A DNA stretch of 42,365 nucleotides from Bathymodiolus heckerae thiotrophic gill symbiont (GTDB lineage: Bacteria > Pseudomonadota > Gammaproteobacteria > PS1 > Pseudothioglobaceae). Location of the stretch: contig NZ_FQTP01000005.1 in the NCBI RefSeq assembly GCF_900128515.1, positions 1 through 42,365 on the forward strand, written 5' to 3'. This document shows, in pieces, positions 27,628 through 41,107 of this stretch. Every line of letters begins with the position of its first letter. Within the stretch, counting starts at the first letter, position 1. The position numbers and the translations under genes were made by a program. The notes under the pieces were generated by a model that was not told the origin of the DNA, did no database searches, and was given only the letters and a program-made list of their open reading frames with translations.

Positions 27628-28689
27628 TTATTTGTGCACATATTTTTTGCCTGTTTGTTTATGAAGAATGCCTAATAGGAAAGCCATATTGCTGCTATTT
27701 ATCTCAGCAGGGTCTTTCTCCTGAATATTGCTAAACGCCATTTTTATTTCATCCTGAGTGTATTGTCTTAAAATGTTTGAAGTTGCTCTGCCTTTAATTC
27801 CAATGCTCATCATTAGCGCAATTACAGCATTATCAGTGGTTGGCTGCTCATTAACCACCTTGACCACCTTAACCACCTTAACCACCTTAACTGGCGTTAT
27901 TTCAAAATGATATCCTGCTGTTTTGTTACTGATTTTGATAATATCAACAATAACTTGAATATCTCCATAGGCATTTATCTGTTTACATTTACTTTTTAAG
28001 CTTCGAGTTAGTGCTGTGCTGGTTAGTTGGTTTTCACTAGGAAAATGAAGATGGTTTCTGATTGCTTGAGTCGTTATTTCAAATACACCATATTTTTTAT
28101 TTTTGTTCCAGTCTTTTTGGTTTTTAGGAAAGGCTTTTTCCCATTTTTTTAGTAGCATGAACAAATCGTAAATTTCATTAGTTTTGCATTTTAATAACGG
28201 TGTTTTTTCAACCGAAACATAGTTAGGCTCTCCAAATCTATTAACTTCAGTATTAATAAAATTAATAAAATCCTGATTAAGACGAATACGCGTTTGGCCG
28301 CGATATTTTTCTCTTCGGATCGCCGAAACAATTGATATATCCGTATCATCAAATGGCATATTTTGCTGAAAAGCACGATAAAAATTATTCTTTTTAATAT
28401 CAGCAACAATTGCTGACATGGTTTCTTCTACGCCTATTTTTTTAGATTTAATCATTGGATGGTTGTTTAAAAAATCCTCATCTTTGATATAAAAATTTTG
28501 ATTGGCCGTTAGTTTTTTGGACGATCTAATTTTTTCATAAGCAAAACTCCAAAATCTTCTTGTGTTTATATTTTGAAAATGACACTTTGCTGCTGCAAGT
28601 GCAGTCGCAATAAAATATTTATTGATTTGTTTACTTTCGAAAACAAAGTTAAGTTCTCCTTGTTTTTCTTGCAAAGCAAAATTAGGCAT
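27628..28689 (-). CDS. rep: Replication initiator protein (iteron-type Rep)
   Basis: The 353-residue protein is called Rep because it lies directly beside the only iteron array in the window, is basic, and has a pattern of two helical DNA-binding modules: an early FFWSFAYEKI/RRFWSFAYEK block, a middle IYDLFMLLKKW block and the ITTQAIRNHLHF helix-turn region. A VKVV run of four 9-base units separates this from a helical C-terminal domain (DEIKMAFSNIQEKD). No catalytic residues are expected in such proteins. The ribosome site AGGAG lies nine bases before the ATG. An iteron at 28746 sits over the likely promoter, which would allow self-repression. Confidence 0.65.
   Translation of the reverse strand: MPNFALQEKQGELNFVFESKQINKYFIATALAAAKCHFQNINTRRFWSFAYEKIRSSKKLTANQNFYIKDEDFLNNHPMIKSKKIGVEETMSAIVADIKKNNFYRAFQQNMPFDDTDISIVSAIRREKYRGQTRIRLNQDFINFINTEVNRFGEPNYVSVEKTPLLKCKTNEIYDLFMLLKKWEKAFPKNQKDWNKNKKYGVFEITTQAIRNHLHFPSENQLTSTALTRSLKSKCKQINAYGDIQVIVDIIKISNKTAGYHFEITPVKVVKVVKVVKVVNEQPTTDNAVIALMMSIGIKGRATSNILRQYTQDEIKMAFSNIQEKDPAEINSSNMAFLLGILHKQTGKKYVHK
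27853..27891 (-). repeat. Nine-base tandem repeat inside rep
   Basis: Four units of AACCACCTT (one unit differs by one base) encode the linker VKVVKVVKVV. The array is in frame, so copy-number changes by slippage would lengthen or shorten the linker between the DNA-binding core and the C-terminal domain without breaking the gene. Confidence 0.9.
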
Positions 28690-28745
28690 TTTTTATACTC
28701 CTAAACATTGTTATTAAAGTTATTCTATTGTTATAGTTATAGGGT

Positions 28746-29086
28746 GTGCAACCTAGGCGGAAGCTGTGCAAGTAAAATAAATTTGATAAAAACGCTTTAA
28801 TAATGACACTTGTAGCGCTTATTTTTCTTAAAATAGTGATGTTTTTTAAGTGTAAAAAGCAGGTTTTGAATGCAAGTGAGGCGGAAGTTTTGTGCAACCT
28901 AGGCGGAAGTTTTGTGCAACCTAGGCGGAAAAGTGTGCAACCTAGGCGGAAGCTGTGCAACCTAGGCGGAAGCTGTGCAAGCAATATAAATATTAAGCGC
29001 TTAAGGCTATTAGAGCAAGGATTAGTTTTTGCATTTTTACTACCAAGTGTGCAACCTAGGCGGAAGCTGTGCAAGTTGTACGGAAC
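28746..29086 (+). repeat. Iteron array, candidate origin of replication (oriV)
   Basis: The unit TGTGCAACCTAGGCGGAAG occurs at 28745, 28891, 28913, 28934, 28954 and 29048, with degenerate copies at 28871 (tgcaagtgaggcggaag) and 29068. Within the main cluster the spacing is 20-22 bases, i.e. two helical turns, so Rep molecules would sit on one face of the DNA. The stretch 28980-29045 between copies is AT-rich and could be the melting region. A near-perfect DnaA box (one mismatch, TTATCCATA) lies at 29214-29222. Together with rep this is a standard iteron-regulated origin. Confidence 0.85.
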
Positions 29087-29156
29087 GCCTAAAACACTGC
29101 CTATTAAAGAGATTTTAAGATTTTTTAGGGGTGTATAAAAGAGTTTTTCAAACGCA

Positions 29157-29192
29157 AAAATACACTCAAAACCATTGTTTTGAGTGTATTTT
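29157..29192. other. Perfect 16-bp hairpin between the iterons and the tRNA gene
   Basis: The arms AAAATACACTCAAAAC and their exact complement surround the four-base loop CATT. It has A runs on one side and T runs on the other, so it could end transcripts from either strand. It could also be part of the origin or an oriT-like hairpin. No gene overlaps it with any confidence. Confidence 0.7.
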
Positions 29193-29264
29193 GATTTAAA
29201 TATTTGAATAACTTTATCCATAAAATCCTTAAATTAATAAAAATTTGTATGAATAAAGTAAAAG

Positions 29265-35527: not shown

Positions 35528-36859
35528 CTAGCGCATAGTGACCAATTCTTCTGCACTGGTTGGATGAATGGCAATCGTATCATCGAAGTCTTTTTTGGTT
35601 GCACCCATCTTAATAGCCACCGCAAAACCTTGTAACATTTCATCAGCGCCGTGCCCCATAATATGACAACCCACCACCTTTTCGTTATCGCCTGTACAAA
35701 CCAGCTTTAGTGCAGTGGTGGTTTTGTGATCAAGCAAGGTATCTGCCATTGGGGTGAATTCTGATTTATACACCTTTACCTTTTTACATTGCTCATTAGC
35801 CTCATTCTCGGTGAGTCCAATCGTGCCAATCGGTGGATGTGAAAACACCACGGTGGCAATATTGTTGTAATTTAGGTGTCTATCAGGCATATTGTTATAA
35901 AGCCGGTCAGACAGCCTTCTGCCAGCTGCAATTGCCACAGGTGTGAGAGGCGCCCGACCTGTGGCATCACCAAGTGCAAAAATATTGTCAATATTGGTAG
36001 CTTGATATTTGTCCGTTGGAATAAAGCCTTTTTGGTCGCATTTTATACCTGCATTTTCTAGACCTAGGTGTTGCGTCATTGGGTTTCTTCCAACTGCCCA
36101 AATAATTTCATCAAACCCAGAAAACTCACCTTTGTTGGTAACAAGGGTTTTGTTGTTGGTAACTTTGTTAATTTGTGAGCCGTGATGAATGGTAATACCA
36201 TGCGCTGTGTAGTCTTTATCAAGCGCAGTTTGAATCATTGAATCGAAACCTCTGAGTAAGGTATCTGCTCTGCCAAAAATCGCCACTTCTGAGCCAAGTG
36301 CATTTAATACGCCTGCCAATTCAACGCCAATATAACCACCGCCAATCACCGCTACTTTTTTGGGCAATGTTTCTAATGCAAAAAAACCATCAGAAGTAAT
36401 ACCATATTCAGCACCTTCAATATGCGGCATAGCAGGCTCACCACCGGGAGAAAGTACAATATGTTTGGCCGTATAAGTCTCACCATTTACACTCACCGTA
36501 TTTTTATCTACCAACTTGCCAAAGCCATGAATATAATCAATGCCCAGTTTTTCCAAATAGCCGTCATACCAAGTAGTAATGCCTTTGATGTAATTATCAC
36601 GCCCTTGTTTAAGTTTTTCCCATGAAAAGTTCTTAACATCAACTGCAAACCCAAACCCCTGTGCGTTGTTAATTTGCGTAGCGGCATTAGCTGCAAACCA
36701 CATCACTTTTTTAGGCACGCAACCCACATTTACACAAGTACCACCCATAGTTTTTACCTCAATAACGAGGCATTTTTTGCCATACTCTGCTGCCCGTTCT
36801 ACTGCCGATAGCCCGCCACTGCCTGCGCCAATTGCTATCATATCGTAATGTTTTGTCAT
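35528..36859 (-). CDS. gor: Glutathione reductase
   Basis: The enzyme reduces oxidised glutathione with NADPH. Features: FAD site [13 protein letters not shown], the redox pair in [13 protein letters not shown], the NADPH site [11 protein letters not shown] and the C-terminal HPTSAEE carrying the active-site His-Glu pair. I start at the ATG at 36859 because GGAG lies seven bases ahead; the upstream in-frame ATG at 36871 sits at the tail of a terminator. The gene is last in the antioxidant cluster, directly after the intrinsic terminator behind the EncFtn gene, so it depends on readthrough or a promoter inside that gene. Confidence 0.95.
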
Positions 36860-36871
36860 TTTTTTCTCCAT

Positions 36872-36895
36872 AAAAAAAGGGCTCTCGCCCCTTAT
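36872..36895 (-). terminator. Intrinsic terminator between EncFtn and gor
   Basis: On the minus strand GGGC and GCCC arms close a GAGA (GNRA) tetraloop, with extra A-T pairs below and seven T residues after. It begins six bases after the EncFtn stop. The gor ribosome site directly follows its T run. Confidence 0.85.
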
Positions 36896-36900
36896 TGGGT

Positions 36901-37185
36901 TTAGTGGGTAATTGGCTTATCAGTAAAAAGATAGTCTTTTAACTCTTTATCAAAAGCTTTATCTTTGCGTCTAATCCACTCTAAAACCATCGCTGCGTGT
37001 TCTTTTTCCTCATCGCGATTATGTCTTAAAATCGCCGATAACTCATCATCTTGACACGCATCAATGCGCTGATTATACCAATCAACCGCCTCTAATTCCT
37101 CCATTAGCGAAACAATTGTTTTGTGCATATCCTTAGTCGCTTGGGTTAAATTTTCCTCTGCTTCGTGGTAACCTTCGTTTGCCAT
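36901..37185 (-). CDS. EncFtn-type ferritin-like protein without an encapsulin neighbour
   Basis: The 94-residue protein resembles the encapsulated ferritin EncFtn from Rhodospirillum rubrum over its length. [17 protein letters not shown] and [19 protein letters not shown] supply the ferroxidase residues: E30, E60 and H63, with W36 and Y37 next to them (E32, E62, H65, W38 and Y39 in that protein). EncFtn makes a ring decamer that oxidises Fe(II) and needs an encapsulin shell to store it. Here the C terminus ends at PITH with no visible encapsulin-targeting peptide, and no shell gene is adjacent. The gene sits 11 bases behind catalase. Confidence 0.88.
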
Positions 37186-37196
37186 ATTTATCTCCT

Positions 37197-38657
37197 TTAT
37201 AAGTCTTTCATTATAGTTTTTATACGATGAGCATAATCACTATCTGCCTTATTAAATTGAGCAAGCATTTCTTGTTGTACCTCTGCTGTTGCCTGTGATA
37301 AACCTTCAGCAATTGTGGTGGTAAGTTGAGATTTTTGCGACTCATTCATTAACCTAAATAAATCACCTGCTTGTTGATAATAATCCTCTACTTCAACCGT
37401 ATCAAAACGATTTATCCAAGCATTTTTTTCAACAGGCATTGCAGGTTCTGCGAATATAGGTTTTGGTTTTGGTGCACCGTCATTGATTTGATTATTAGGA
37501 TAAAAATTCACTTTATCAGTTTGAATTTTGTCGCCACCAACAGGACACATTCCTGCCATCTTACCATCTCTTTGATAGTGATTAACAGGACATTTTGCAG
37601 CATTCACAGGGAGCTGATTAGCGTTAGCACCAACACGATAACGATGAGCATCTGGGTATGCTAATAACCTTGTTTGCAACATTTTGTCAGGTGAAGTGCC
37701 AATACCGGGGACTAAATTACCAGGAGAAAAGCAGGCTTGTTCAGTTTCAGCAAAGTAATTTTCAACATTACGATTGAGTTCAAGTTGCCCAACTTCAATC
37801 AGTGGAAAATCTGCGTGTGACCAAACTTTGGTTAAATCAAAAGGATTGAGATGATAATTTTTAGCCTTATCTTCACTCATCATTTGCACACTGGCTGTCC
37901 AACTTGGAAAGTCCCCTTTATCAATTGCATTAACTAAATCTTCTTGTGCGCCAAATGGACATGTTTTTGCAGCCTCGTCATTGGTTAAGTTTTTAATTCC
38001 TTGATTGGTTTTAAAGTGCCATTTAAACCAAGTTCTTTCGCCTTGCTCATTCCAAAAACTAAAGGTATGCGAACTAAATCCGTGCATATGTTGATAACTA
38101 GCAGGAATACCTCTGTCCGACATTAAAATTGTAATTTGATGCAATGATTGCGGATGATTTGCCCAAAACTCAAACATTGCTGCTGGGTCAGGCAAATTTG
38201 TTTTTGGATTTTTCTTTTGTGAATGAATAAAATCAGGAAAATTAATACCATCACGCAAAAAGAAGACAGGCGTATTGTTGCCTACCATATCATAATTACC
38301 TTCACTCGTATAAAACTTTAAGGCAAATCCGCGAGGATCTCTAGCATAATCACTAGAATCTTGTCCGCCGCCAACCGTTGAAAATCGTGCAAATACTTCA
38401 GTTTGTTGACCAACTGTTTGTAAAAAATTAGCAATGGTTTTATCCTTTAATGATTTTGTAACAGTAAATGTGCCATAAGTACCCGTGCCTCTAGCATGAA
38501 CTACTCGCTCTGGAATTCGTTCACGATTAAAATGGGCTAATTTTTCAAAAGTGTAGTGATTATCAAAGGTTAATGCGCCTCTCTCGCCTACTGTAATACT
38601 ATTATTGTCGTCTGCAACTGGCGAACCTGTTGCGTTGGTTAAAGTCTTTTTGTTCAT
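37197..38657 (-). CDS. katA: Haem catalase
   Basis: Catalase splits hydrogen peroxide. The product has 486 residues from the ATG at 38657, chosen because AAGGAG lies eight bases ahead; a longer frame from 38702 overlaps DUF3501. The catalytic His is in RVVHARGTGTYGTF, the Asn in NNTPVFFLRDGI, and the haem-ligand Tyr in RLLAYPDAHRYRVGAN. The C-terminal part is short, so it is a small-subunit clade enzyme. No signal peptide is seen, so it acts in the cytoplasm. It follows the DUF3501 gene by 25 bases and precedes EncFtn by 11. Confidence 0.96.
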   Translation of the reverse strand: MNKKTLTNATGSPVADDNNSITVGERGALTFDNHYTFEKLAHFNRERIPERVVHARGTGTYGTFTVTKSLKDKTIANFLQTVGQQTEVFARFSTVGGGQDSSDYARDPRGFALKFYTSEGNYDMVGNNTPVFFLRDGINFPDFIHSQKKNPKTNLPDPAAMFEFWANHPQSLHQITILMSDRGIPASYQHMHGFSSHTFSFWNEQGERTWFKWHFKTNQGIKNLTNDEAAKTCPFGAQEDLVNAIDKGDFPSWTASVQMMSEDKAKNYHLNPFDLTKVWSHADFPLIEVGQLELNRNVENYFAETEQACFSPGNLVPGIGTSPDKMLQTRLLAYPDAHRYRVGANANQLPVNAAKCPVNHYQRDGKMAGMCPVGGDKIQTDKVNFYPNNQINDGAPKPKPIFAEPAMPVEKNAWINRFDTVEVEDYYQQAGDLFRLMNESQKSQLTTTIAEGLSQATAEVQQEMLAQFNKADSDYAHRIKTIMKDL

Positions 38658-38682: not shown

Positions 38683-39282
38683 TTAATGACACCGCTCCAC
38701 ATTGTTTTTAAAATCCAATGCTAGCAGCTCTTTCTGTGCTAATGATAATATTGTTGTGCTTTGATAATTAGCATGATTGGCAATAATTTCAACTTTGGCA
38801 GTATGAAAATCTTTTATCATTGTTGCGTTTAATTCAAAACGCATAAAATGCACAGACGAGGTTTTATCTTCGGTTTGCCTCTCTAAATCTTCATTACAAA
38901 TTGCAAAAACTTTTTGATGATTGCCAATTTGGAAGTAAATATTTTTTTCAATGTTAAGTAATTGGCTCAATTTTTGTTTGCGTTCAACTTCATTGCTGTA
39001 TTCTAATATCATTGTGGCTTTTAAATTATTACCTGTTGGAATGAGCGGATTATAAGTATCTAATTCTTCTTGAATTTCTGCTACTTCAAAAATCTTTTCA
39101 ATGCGTAACATTTCTTGAATTTGATATTGAATGGTTTGTTGGTTTTCAAATAATAGGCGAATACTCTCACCAAGCATTACACTTCTATTTTTTCTAATCG
39201 CAATGACTTCTGTTCTGAACTCATTGCGTTTTTTTGCATAATCTTCAGGAGATAATAAATCATTTTTTGTTAATATTTTCAT
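38683..39282 (-). CDS. DUF3501 family protein
   Basis: The 199 residues show the DUF3501 layout: LSPEDYAKKRNEFRTEVIAIRKNRSVMLGESIRLLFENQQTIQYQIQEMLRIEKI as an early helical block and a later FMRFELNATMIKDF. This family is repeatedly found next to rubrerythrin and Fe-S oxidoreductases like the one upstream, and its job is unknown. The start codon overlaps that gene by 4 bases. It is probably a cytoplasmic partner of the oxidoreductase. Confidence 0.85.
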   Translation of the reverse strand: MKILTKNDLLSPEDYAKKRNEFRTEVIAIRKNRSVMLGESIRLLFENQQTIQYQIQEMLRIEKIFEVAEIQEELDTYNPLIPTGNNLKATMILEYSNEVERKQKLSQLLNIEKNIYFQIGNHQKVFAICNEDLERQTEDKTSSVHFMRFELNATMIKDFHTAKVEIIANHANYQSTTILSLAQKELLALDFKNNVERCH

Positions 39283-40577
39283 AGTCTGTATTTTTGTTTA
39301 AGTAAGGTTATTGGATGGATTGATGGCACTTTATCTTCATTAATATGTGCGATATGATTGCCTGCCATCACACAATCGCTAACAATATAATCGGTTTTTT
39401 CGGTAACTTTTTTAGCAACAGGTTTGCCGATTTTTACGGCAAACTCATAACTGTGTTTTTTTACCCCATAAGTACCATCATGCCCAGAGCATCGTGTCGC
39501 AAGATTGAGTGTAATATCAGGAATTAAAGATAGAATTTTCTTAGTTTTAGTGCCAATATTCTGGACTCTTTGGTGGCACGCCATATGGTAAAGCACCTCG
39601 GTCTCTTGATTTTCAAAATCAGTATTTAATACGCCTTTATCATTTAAGAAATCTAAATATTCGAAAGGATCAACAAAAGCATTGGCAATTTTTTGAATAT
39701 CTTTATCTGCTGGTAGCATCATTGGCAATTCATTTTTAAACATCAGCACGCAAGAAGGAATTGGTGCCATAATTTTATAACCCTGATTAACTGCGTCTAA
39801 TAAGATTGTTTTATTTTGTTGGGCGTAATTCATCGCACTTTGAATATCGCCTAATTCTAATTTTGGCATACCGCAACATTGCGTTCTTTGTAATAATTGC
39901 ACAGCAACTTCATTGTGTTGCAACACAGCCACCAAATCAGTAACAATTTGTGGGTCATTGTGTTGCCCATAACAGGTGATAAAAATAGCAACTTTGTAAT
40001 CACTTTGTACGGTTTTGTGTTCGCTTGATAATTTGCTTAATAATTTAGTTGCAGTTTTATTATGATATTTAGGAATAAGTGCTTGAGGATGAAGCTTTAA
40101 CAGTTTTCTAACCCAATTAAAGTCATTCATTTTATTAACAATTTTTGCTAGTTTTAACGAACTAACCATTTTACCAACCAATTGAGGTGAGGCTAATAAT
40201 TGGTTGGTAATACTGGCTCCTTTTTGCTTAAATTGCACAGCTTTAGCGCGCAACATCAAATGCGGAAAGTCAATATTCCATTCATGTGGTGGTGTATAAG
40301 GGCATTTGGTCATATAACATAAATCACATAAGAAACATTCATCTACCACTTTTTGATAATCTTTTTTATCAACACCATCAACCTCCATCGTTTTGGAATC
40401 ATCCATCAAATCGAATAATACTGGAAAAGATTGACACAAACTAACACAACGCCGACAACCATGGCATAAGTCAAAGACGCGCTCCATTTCATTGTGTAAT
40501 AATTCTTCATCATAAAATGAAGGGTTTTGCCAATCTAATGGGTGACGCGTTGGGGCTTGTAAATTACCTTCTTGCAT
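39279..40577 (-). CDS. Two-cluster [4Fe-4S] oxidoreductase with CCG domains (GlpC/HdrD-like)
   Basis: The 432-residue protein has two ferredoxin motifs near the N terminus, CHGCRRCVSLCQSFP and CFLCDLCYMTKCPY. Two cysteine-rich (CCG) domains follow, marked by CYGQHNDP with QCCGMPKLELGD and by MACHQRV with CSGHDGTYG. Such proteins pass electrons from a flavoprotein or quinone to a partner. Between rubrerythrin and DUF3501 it is probably the electron source for peroxide reduction; that role is inferred from gene order. The sequence is soluble, with no clear membrane helix. Confidence 0.85.
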   Translation of the reverse strand: MQEGNLQAPTRHPLDWQNPSFYDEELLHNEMERVFDLCHGCRRCVSLCQSFPVLFDLMDDSKTMEVDGVDKKDYQKVVDECFLCDLCYMTKCPYTPPHEWNIDFPHLMLRAKAVQFKQKGASITNQLLASPQLVGKMVSSLKLAKIVNKMNDFNWVRKLLKLHPQALIPKYHNKTATKLLSKLSSEHKTVQSDYKVAIFITCYGQHNDPQIVTDLVAVLQHNEVAVQLLQRTQCCGMPKLELGDIQSAMNYAQQNKTILLDAVNQGYKIMAPIPSCVLMFKNELPMMLPADKDIQKIANAFVDPFEYLDFLNDKGVLNTDFENQETEVLYHMACHQRVQNIGTKTKKILSLIPDITLNLATRCSGHDGTYGVKKHSYEFAVKIGKPVAKKVTEKTDYIVSDCVMAGNHIAHINEDKVPSIHPITLLKQKYRL

Positions 40578-40595: not shown

Positions 40596-40655
40596 GAGTC
40601 TATTGATTACTAATATTTATACAAAGGTCTCAAAATATTAGTAATCAATAGACTC
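40596..40655. other. Long perfect inverted repeat between rbr and the Fe-S oxidoreductase
   Basis: Two arms of 23 bases, beginning GAGTCTATTGATTACTAATA and exactly complementary to each other, enclose a 14-base loop. In the rbr transcript this gives a long stable hairpin 18 bases before the start of the next gene. It is not followed by a T run, so simple termination is unlikely. It might protect the 3' end of a processed rbr message or hold a protein site. Confidence 0.85.
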
Positions 40656-40689
40656 TTATAAATGAGGTAAAAAATTACCCCATTTATAA
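40656..40689 (-). other. Second hairpin directly behind rbr
   Basis: Fifteen-base arms (TTATAAATGAGGTAA and its complement with one mismatch) enclose AAAA. The hairpin begins four bases after the rbr stop and abuts the longer repeat at 40596-40655. Together they fill almost the whole gap between rbr and the next gene, pointing to RNA processing or attenuation of the operon. Confidence 0.75.
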
Positions 40690-40693
40690 AAGC

Positions 40694-41107
40694 TTATAAG
40701 TTATCTAATGCTTTTTGAAAACGATTAGCGTGTGAGCGTTCTGCTTTGGCTAATGTCTCAAACCAATCAGCAATTTCATCAAATCCTTCTTCTCTTGCAT
40801 CTTTAACCATTCCTGGATACATATCAGTATATTCGTGTGTTTCGCCTGCAATGGCAGCCTTTAGATTATCAGCAGTCTCGCCAATCGGAAGACCTGTTGC
40901 TGGATCACCCACTTCTTCTAAATACTCCAAATGTCCGTGTGCGTGTCCCGTTTCACCTTCAGCGGTTGAACGAAAAACAGCCGCCACATCGTTACAACCT
41001 TCAATATCTGCTTTTGCCGCAAAATAAAGATAACGGCGATTTGCCTGAGACTCTCCTGAAAAAGCATCTTTTAAGTTTTGCTCTGTTCTACTGTTTTTTA
41101 ATGACAT
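40694..41107 (-). CDS. rbr: Rubrerythrin-type di-iron peroxidase without rubredoxin domain
   Basis: Rubrerythrins reduce hydrogen peroxide at a di-iron site. The 137-residue protein has the ligands E19, E50/E52, H55, E89, E92, E123 and H126 in the usual contexts (TAEGETGHAHGHLEYL, ETHEYTDMY, KAERSHANRF). It stops after the four-helix bundle, so the C-terminal rubredoxin domain is missing and electrons must come from another protein, probably the Fe-S oxidoreductase encoded next. It has its own ribosome site, AGGAGAG. Confidence 0.95.
   Translation of the reverse strand: MSLKNSRTEQNLKDAFSGESQANRRYLYFAAKADIEGCNDVAAVFRSTAEGETGHAHGHLEYLEEVGDPATGLPIGETADNLKAAIAGETHEYTDMYPGMVKDAREEGFDEIADWFETLAKAERSHANRFQKALDNL

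Follow-up and report, generated by a model that had tools for sequence, protein, structure and literature searches.

What use can a cell have for a ferroxidase that encloses no cavity, and where does its Fe(III) go? These questions are raised by a small gene in a 42,365-nucleotide stretch of DNA from the Bathymodiolus heckerae thiotrophic gill symbiont, which we analysed as a whole and refer to as the window. An earlier note on this DNA had presented the gene product, an EncFtn-family ferritin with neither a targeting peptide nor an encapsulin gene beside it, as something of an anomaly. We find instead a standard member of a published class, the s-FLPs (shorter ferritin-like proteins), with 525 relatives in our scan and with shells almost absent from the genomes that encode it. 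The genes that accompany it here or in its relatives, namely those for catalase, peroxiredoxin, rubrerythrin and glutathione reductase, provide a testable hypothesis for its role. The features of the window that bear on this hypothesis are the following.

40694..41107, minus strand: rubrerythrin of 137 residues, aerobic type, no rubredoxin domain (PF02915, E=1.2e-29)
40652-40693: terminator-like hairpin after the rubrerythrin gene
39279..40577, minus strand: RFO (PF02754, E=1.1e-11)
38683..39282, minus strand: DUF3501 protein, third gene of the aerobic-type rubrerythrin cluster (PF12007, E=2.2e-64)
37197..38657, minus strand: haem catalase (PF00199, E=4.9e-172)
36901..37185, minus strand: s-FLP, EncFtn-family protein of 94 amino acids without a targeting peptide (PF22277, identity to 3k6c, AlphaFold2 monomer)
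36876..36893, minus strand: terminator-like hairpin with a T tract, between s-FLP and gor
35528..36871, minus strand: glutathione-disulfide reductase, gor (NCBIfam NF004776 and TIGR01421, both above cut-off)

The open reading frame at 36901-37185 (minus strand) is a real gene, and a chance reading frame is excluded. On the minus strand the order is rubrerythrin, RFO, DUF3501, catalase, s-FLP and glutathione reductase, and the profiles bear out the catalase and glutathione reductase neighbours, with no shell gene, that had been described before; both are on the same strand as s-FLP. Catalase and s-FLP are 11 bp apart, and s-FLP has a ribosome-binding site. A good ribosome-binding site (AAGGAGATAGAAATG) precedes the catalase start at 38657, the start at 38702 in the list of open reading frames being too early. 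The genes directly upstream of katA-sFLP-gor, rbr-RFO-DUF3501, make up the aerobic-type rubrerythrin cluster described in PMC5114695, and in the parts of that paper that set out the cluster no EncFtn gene is mentioned as a member; in some other genera s-FLP is located inside the cluster. Because a terminator-like hairpin precedes gor, expression of gor may depend on read-through, and hairpins of varied sequence (GGGGC-loop-GCCCC-T(n)) are found at the same site in relatives (L005, L006, L008, L009 and L029). Similarly, given the hairpin after rubrerythrin, a single transcript across all six genes is not established. A scan of the window for sigma-70 promoters found 18 compared to 21.5 expected.

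The possibility that the contig is a chimera from another family member was considered and rejected. The ftsK gene on the same contig is single in the genome and nearest to the same genus (87%, 85%, 84% and 83% identity, compared to 70-83% for other genera, in this one single-copy gene), and by this measure the contig looks native to its genome. Elsewhere in the window, at 28682-29221, both strands are open and a unit like ASFRLGCT / NLGGSCVQPRRK is repeated, which suggests a short repeat array and no gene.

The protein belongs to the EncFtn family by several measures. The Pfam EncFtn-like profile PF22277 matches it with E=3.8e-42 and 142.4 bits (gathering score 27) over profile positions 2-85 of 85, and it scores 125.3 bits with NCBIfam TIGR04535 (encapsulin-associated ferritin-like protein), barely above the cut-off of 125; the Pfam Ferritin profile PF00210 gives no match to it at E<=0.01. 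The nearest solved structure is that of NE0167 from Nitrosomonas europaea (PDB 3k6c), with 72% identity over residues 1-94. An AlphaFold2 model of the monomer (pLDDT 93.9) has TM scores of 0.89-0.93 to the 3k6c chains, superposes on the 3k6c and 5da5 subunits at 1.0-1.3 A, and contains the helices of a half-ferritin fold, at residues 15-43 and 47-74 with a short third helix at 76-85, on which E30, E60 and H63 are located.

The reading frame ends in LFTDKPITH followed by the stop codon, in agreement with the previous description of a protein that stops right after PITH without a targeting peptide, and it contains no tag motif. In the 2024 review of these proteins (PMC11202242), s-FLPs are described as mainly bacterial, decameric proteins with no apparent targeting peptide, and NE0167 (Ne-EncFtn, 3k6c) is the type of the class. 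The window protein has the features of the class, namely a length of about 95 residues, no long disordered C terminus, no tag and a tail of the form LFTxKPIAH, and it has neither feature of the FLP-TP cargo proteins, which are a C-terminal targeting peptide and an encapsulin gene in the locus or genome. Judged by its sequence, it is an ordinary member of the published but functionally uncharacterised s-FLP class, type NE0167/3k6c. NE0167 itself is similar end to end (95 residues compared to 94), is likewise untagged and has the same fold; it differs in a tail of PIAH plus one residue, compared to PITH here, and in a leucine at position 36, where the window protein and nearly all relatives have tryptophan. 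The 3k6c structure, which is apo and unpublished, was deposited with ten chains, and on the strength of the identity to it a decameric ring with a ferroxidase site at the dimer interface is likely for the window protein as well. The tagged counterpart Rru_A0973 from Rhodospirillum rubrum (Rru-EncFtn, 5da5, FLP-TP) shares the EncFtn fold, the E/E/H site, the entry glutamates and ~61% identity in the core, but it is an encapsulin cargo with a tail of ~45 residues carrying a GSL-type tag, whereas the window s-FLP has neither such a tail nor a shell.

The ferroxidase residues E30, W36, Y37, E60 and H63 are all present under the numbering proposed in the earlier note and are conserved in alignments. 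E29 and E32, the counterparts of the entry-site residues Glu31 and Glu34 of R. rubrum EncFtn, are present as well. Among 89 aligned s-FLPs there is no variation at E29, E30, E32, Y37, E60 or H63, and W36 is found in 88; the same six are invariant, and W36 nearly so, in an alignment of 41 sequences that takes in tagged, untagged and more distant short EncFtn members. The tail LFTxKPIxH is nearly invariant as well (F87 in 88/89, I92 in 84/89 and H94 in 86/89), and no GSL-type tag is found among 102 s-FLPs. The suggestion that the untagged proteins form a separate clade stands in that the s-FLPs cluster and all 102 lack a tag; it does not extend to a single clade, as the tree of s-FLPs and tagged FLPs is built on 97 columns, its long branches meet and its root is uncertain, and it carries no weight for one origin.

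Two further groups of EncFtn proteins were noted in the course of these comparisons. One (L123-L127) is a second short, untagged group, 54-58% identical, with the sequence SSDxLHAPRERLS..., whose genomes contain no PF04454 encapsulin. The other (L128-L131, from the 6-7 Mb genomes of genus g141) is a divergent EncFtn-like group, 37-40% identical, with the sequence GFDQYHEPPEEL..., in which H63 is retained in an altered context and there is no GSL tag; two of its four genomes contain an encapsulin gene far from the EncFtn-like gene, and the other two contain none.

The lack of a shell gene at the locus extends to the whole genome. In this assembly (1.92 Mb in 258 contigs, 99.91% complete, 3.77% contaminated) no encapsulin is detected by PF04454 at E<=10 or by the SrpI-like profile PF19307 at E<=1, which rules out a hidden encapsulin of these two families. 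A scan of genome contigs yielded 525 stretches that encode s-FLP relatives, the best 80 of which are mostly from Gamma- and Betaproteobacteria, with some from Alpha- and Zetaproteobacteria. None of the 17 genomes of the Thioglobus-like family with an intact or broken s-FLP contains an encapsulin above the cut-off (there are two sub-cut-off matches). Among other s-FLP genomes from the contig scan, PF04454 detects one in 1 of 50 and in 2 of 29; an even sampling of the phylum added 13 s-FLP genomes, none of them with an encapsulin. The sets overlap slightly (G060 is G028 and G093 is G017, with identical coordinates), which leaves ~105 distinct s-FLP genomes, with an encapsulin in three and none by PF04454 in ~102. 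Two of the three exceptions (L107 and L156) have their own tagged FLP directly upstream of the shell gene, ending in ...PTIGTLKEQST and ...LTLGSLKPERR, respectively; the third (L157) has only part of a shell gene, interrupted by an internal TAG, and its 3.4 kb locus contains no FLP. Both GSL-tagged proteins from the phylum draw (L121 and L122) also adjoin a shell, as does every tagged FLP that we found. The review leaves the encapsulation of s-FLPs open, and this survey answers most of that question: hardly any s-FLP genome has a shell, and where the shell is complete it is accompanied by a different, tagged ferritin. The automatic name "encapsulin-associated ferritin-like protein" is consequently misleading for the s-FLP class.

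The gene neighbourhoods of the relatives repeatedly point to peroxide defence. Loci of the Thioglobus-like family read catalase-sFLP-GR or PrxGrx-sFLP-GR (GR, glutathione reductase), and several of them include a divergent gene annotated by similarity as LysR/OxyR-type. Outside the family we find rubrerythrin-RFO-sFLP-DUF3501 at L034, L055 and L058 (a rubrerythrin gene is also present at L045), RFO-sFLP-DUF3501 at L060, L086 and L116, KatA-sFLP at L052, and sFLP-Prx5-GR at L077 and L098. DUF3501 is found within 6 kb of s-FLP at 7 of 91 loci, where a rough reckoning for a single-copy gene gives an expectation of a fraction of a percent. Most s-FLP genes outside the family nevertheless stand alone: ~80 of these 91 loci have no adjoining peroxide-defence gene, and there are 137 singletons among the neighbour sequences. 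Where neighbours recur outside the family, they are often genes of peroxide defence. To what is published on the class our analysis adds that its genomes almost never encode a shell, that the tail is conserved even where there is none, and that peroxide-defence genes recur beside its genes.

OxyR of E. coli switches on katG and gor together with dps, whose product reduces the amount of iron available for Fenton chemistry (PMC8115020). The composition katA-sFLP-gor is that of katG, dps and gor with s-FLP standing for Dps, for which a soluble anti-Fenton ferroxidase is the best explanation. We therefore consider it probable that s-FLP is a soluble, shell-free ferroxidase ring, which would be induced by peroxide, would keep Fe(II) low under peroxide stress and would fill the place of Dps in the E. 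coli OxyR regulon. The proposed likeness is one of function, namely less free Fe(II) beside catalase and glutathione reductase under H2O2 stress; Dps forms a closed cage of 12 subunits, in which iron is stored, and makes use of H2O2, whereas EncFtn forms an open ring without a cavity, and there is no family-level homology between them. The literature on OxyR and ferritin in symbionts yielded nothing on s-FLP.

The mechanism that we propose is as follows. Like NE0167, s-FLP would form an open ring of ten subunits, and each of the five dimer interfaces would hold a di-iron ferroxidase site. Fe(II) would pass E29 and E32 on entry, would be oxidised at E30, E60 and H63, and would exit as Fe(III) at the outer surface of the ring. 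Since such a ring encloses no cavity and no shell is available in the cell, storage of an iron mineral by s-FLP should be impossible. The protein would rather withdraw Fe(II) from the Fenton-reactive pool, with the co-encoded catalase and rubrerythrin destroying H2O2 and glutathione reductase restoring thiols. Detoxification of Fe(II), which the earlier note had considered in place of storage, thus appears to be the best reading of this protein. The EncFtn of R. rubrum oxidises Fe(II), binds 10-15 irons per decamer and does not mineralise iron without its shell; the shell-less protein precipitated iron and aggregated in vitro, and EncFtn has no peroxidase activity (PMC5012862). It follows from the lack of peroxidase activity that H2O2 may not be the oxidant used by s-FLP, and from the aggregation that a free ring would have to pass its Fe(III) on to some receiver.

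In the symbiont genome PF00210 matches the window rubrerythrin and nothing else, so that neither Ftn nor Bfr nor Dps is detected, and cage ferritins are likewise undetected in relatives with an intact s-FLP (G004, G047, G037 and G057). A PF00210 protein of the Ftn/Bfr/Dps type is encoded in 23 of the 26 s-FLP genomes that lie outside the family or at its edge, which indicates that replacing Dps is not the general role; s-FLP as a class-wide stand-in for missing cage ferritins is accordingly rejected, although it holds for the genome of the window. More tentatively, and as a possibility for the class as a whole, s-FLPs may be widespread shell-independent ferroxidases that were repeatedly recruited to peroxide-defence operons, with the ring replacing Dps in marine sulfur oxidisers that are free of cage ferritins and the PIxH tail serving ring function or a partner and not targeting.

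The co-encoded proteins also allow the ring to be read as an iron chaperone or local buffer, which binds few irons and supplies haem synthesis for catalase, rubrerythrin or Fe-S proteins encoded alongside. The window does encode haem, di-iron and Fe-S proteins together, the iron capacity of EncFtn rings is low (PMC5012862), and the separate store in most s-FLP genomes leaves a transfer role free. We consider this unlikely, however, since the partners are interchangeable (at L002, L009, L021, L064, L077 and L098 catalase is replaced by a thiol peroxiredoxin, which is independent of iron), most loci have no conserved partner gene, and the ferroxidase site does not vary. The delivery of iron to neighbouring haem or di-iron enzymes, which had been suggested for this locus, finds no specific support where the partner may be a haem catalase, a thiol peroxiredoxin, a rubrerythrin or none, and this variation makes a dedicated metallochaperone for one enzyme unlikely. 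The presence of Ftn/Bfr/Dps-type proteins in the 23 genomes mentioned above would also fit a general role unrelated to peroxide, in which s-FLP oxidises Fe(II) and hands Fe(III) to bacterioferritin or another sink. We regard such a role as quite improbable, given that the symbiont and the four relatives with an intact s-FLP have no protein of this type and that bfr, bfd and ftn do not appear among the clusters of immediate neighbours.

Two further readings were weighed. In one, s-FLP is under weakened selection in this lineage and even the intact copy does little, which would be in keeping with a second, frameshifted copy in the same genome, with broken copies in relatives (G020, G023, the second copy of G017, G039, G049, G054 and G058) and with nine sampled congeners in which no copy is detectable. 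The window copy is intact, retains all active-site residues and a ribosome-binding site and lies 11 bp behind catalase, all of which makes this very unlikely. In the other, the LFTxKPIxH tail is an unrecognised targeting peptide for an undetected shell. The tail is indeed nearly invariant and is given as a putative targeting peptide in Table 2 of PMC11202242, and our shell searches covered PF04454 and, in the symbiont genome, PF19307, whereas encapsulin-like shells also include the rare families 3 and 4. Near-invariance of a tail in cells without a shell argues against targeting, and with PF04454 shells missing from ~102 of the ~105 s-FLP genomes, SrpI-like shells undetected in the symbiont, no GSL-type tag and a separate tagged FLP wherever the shell is complete, we give the cargo reading hardly any credence.

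The ferroxidase role proposed for the window copy coexists with decay of other copies. The second copy of the symbiont (G000:C9:24654-24906; L002 1483-1768, L004) carries one extra base after codon 45, which splits the gene with an immediate stop and may reflect decay or an assembly error. It lies between PrxGrx (a peroxiredoxin-glutaredoxin fusion) and a second glutathione reductase, 86% identical to that of the window, with a divergent LysR/OxyR-type gene at the same locus, and PrxGrx-linked copies with early stops occur also in G023 and G017 (=G093). In genus g2 of the family, represented by complete single-contig genomes of 1.0-1.5 Mb, several s-FLPs are broken and some are absent, while that of G001 is intact. 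Together with the congeners mentioned above (0 of 9 with a detectable copy), the broken and absent copies indicate that s-FLP is dispensable in several lineages. At L015, L017, L018, L019 and L020 (g2) and at L009, L021 and L064, s-FLP has stops or indels and the adjoining glutathione reductase is intact; the catalase beside the broken s-FLP is also degraded at L015, L018 and L020.
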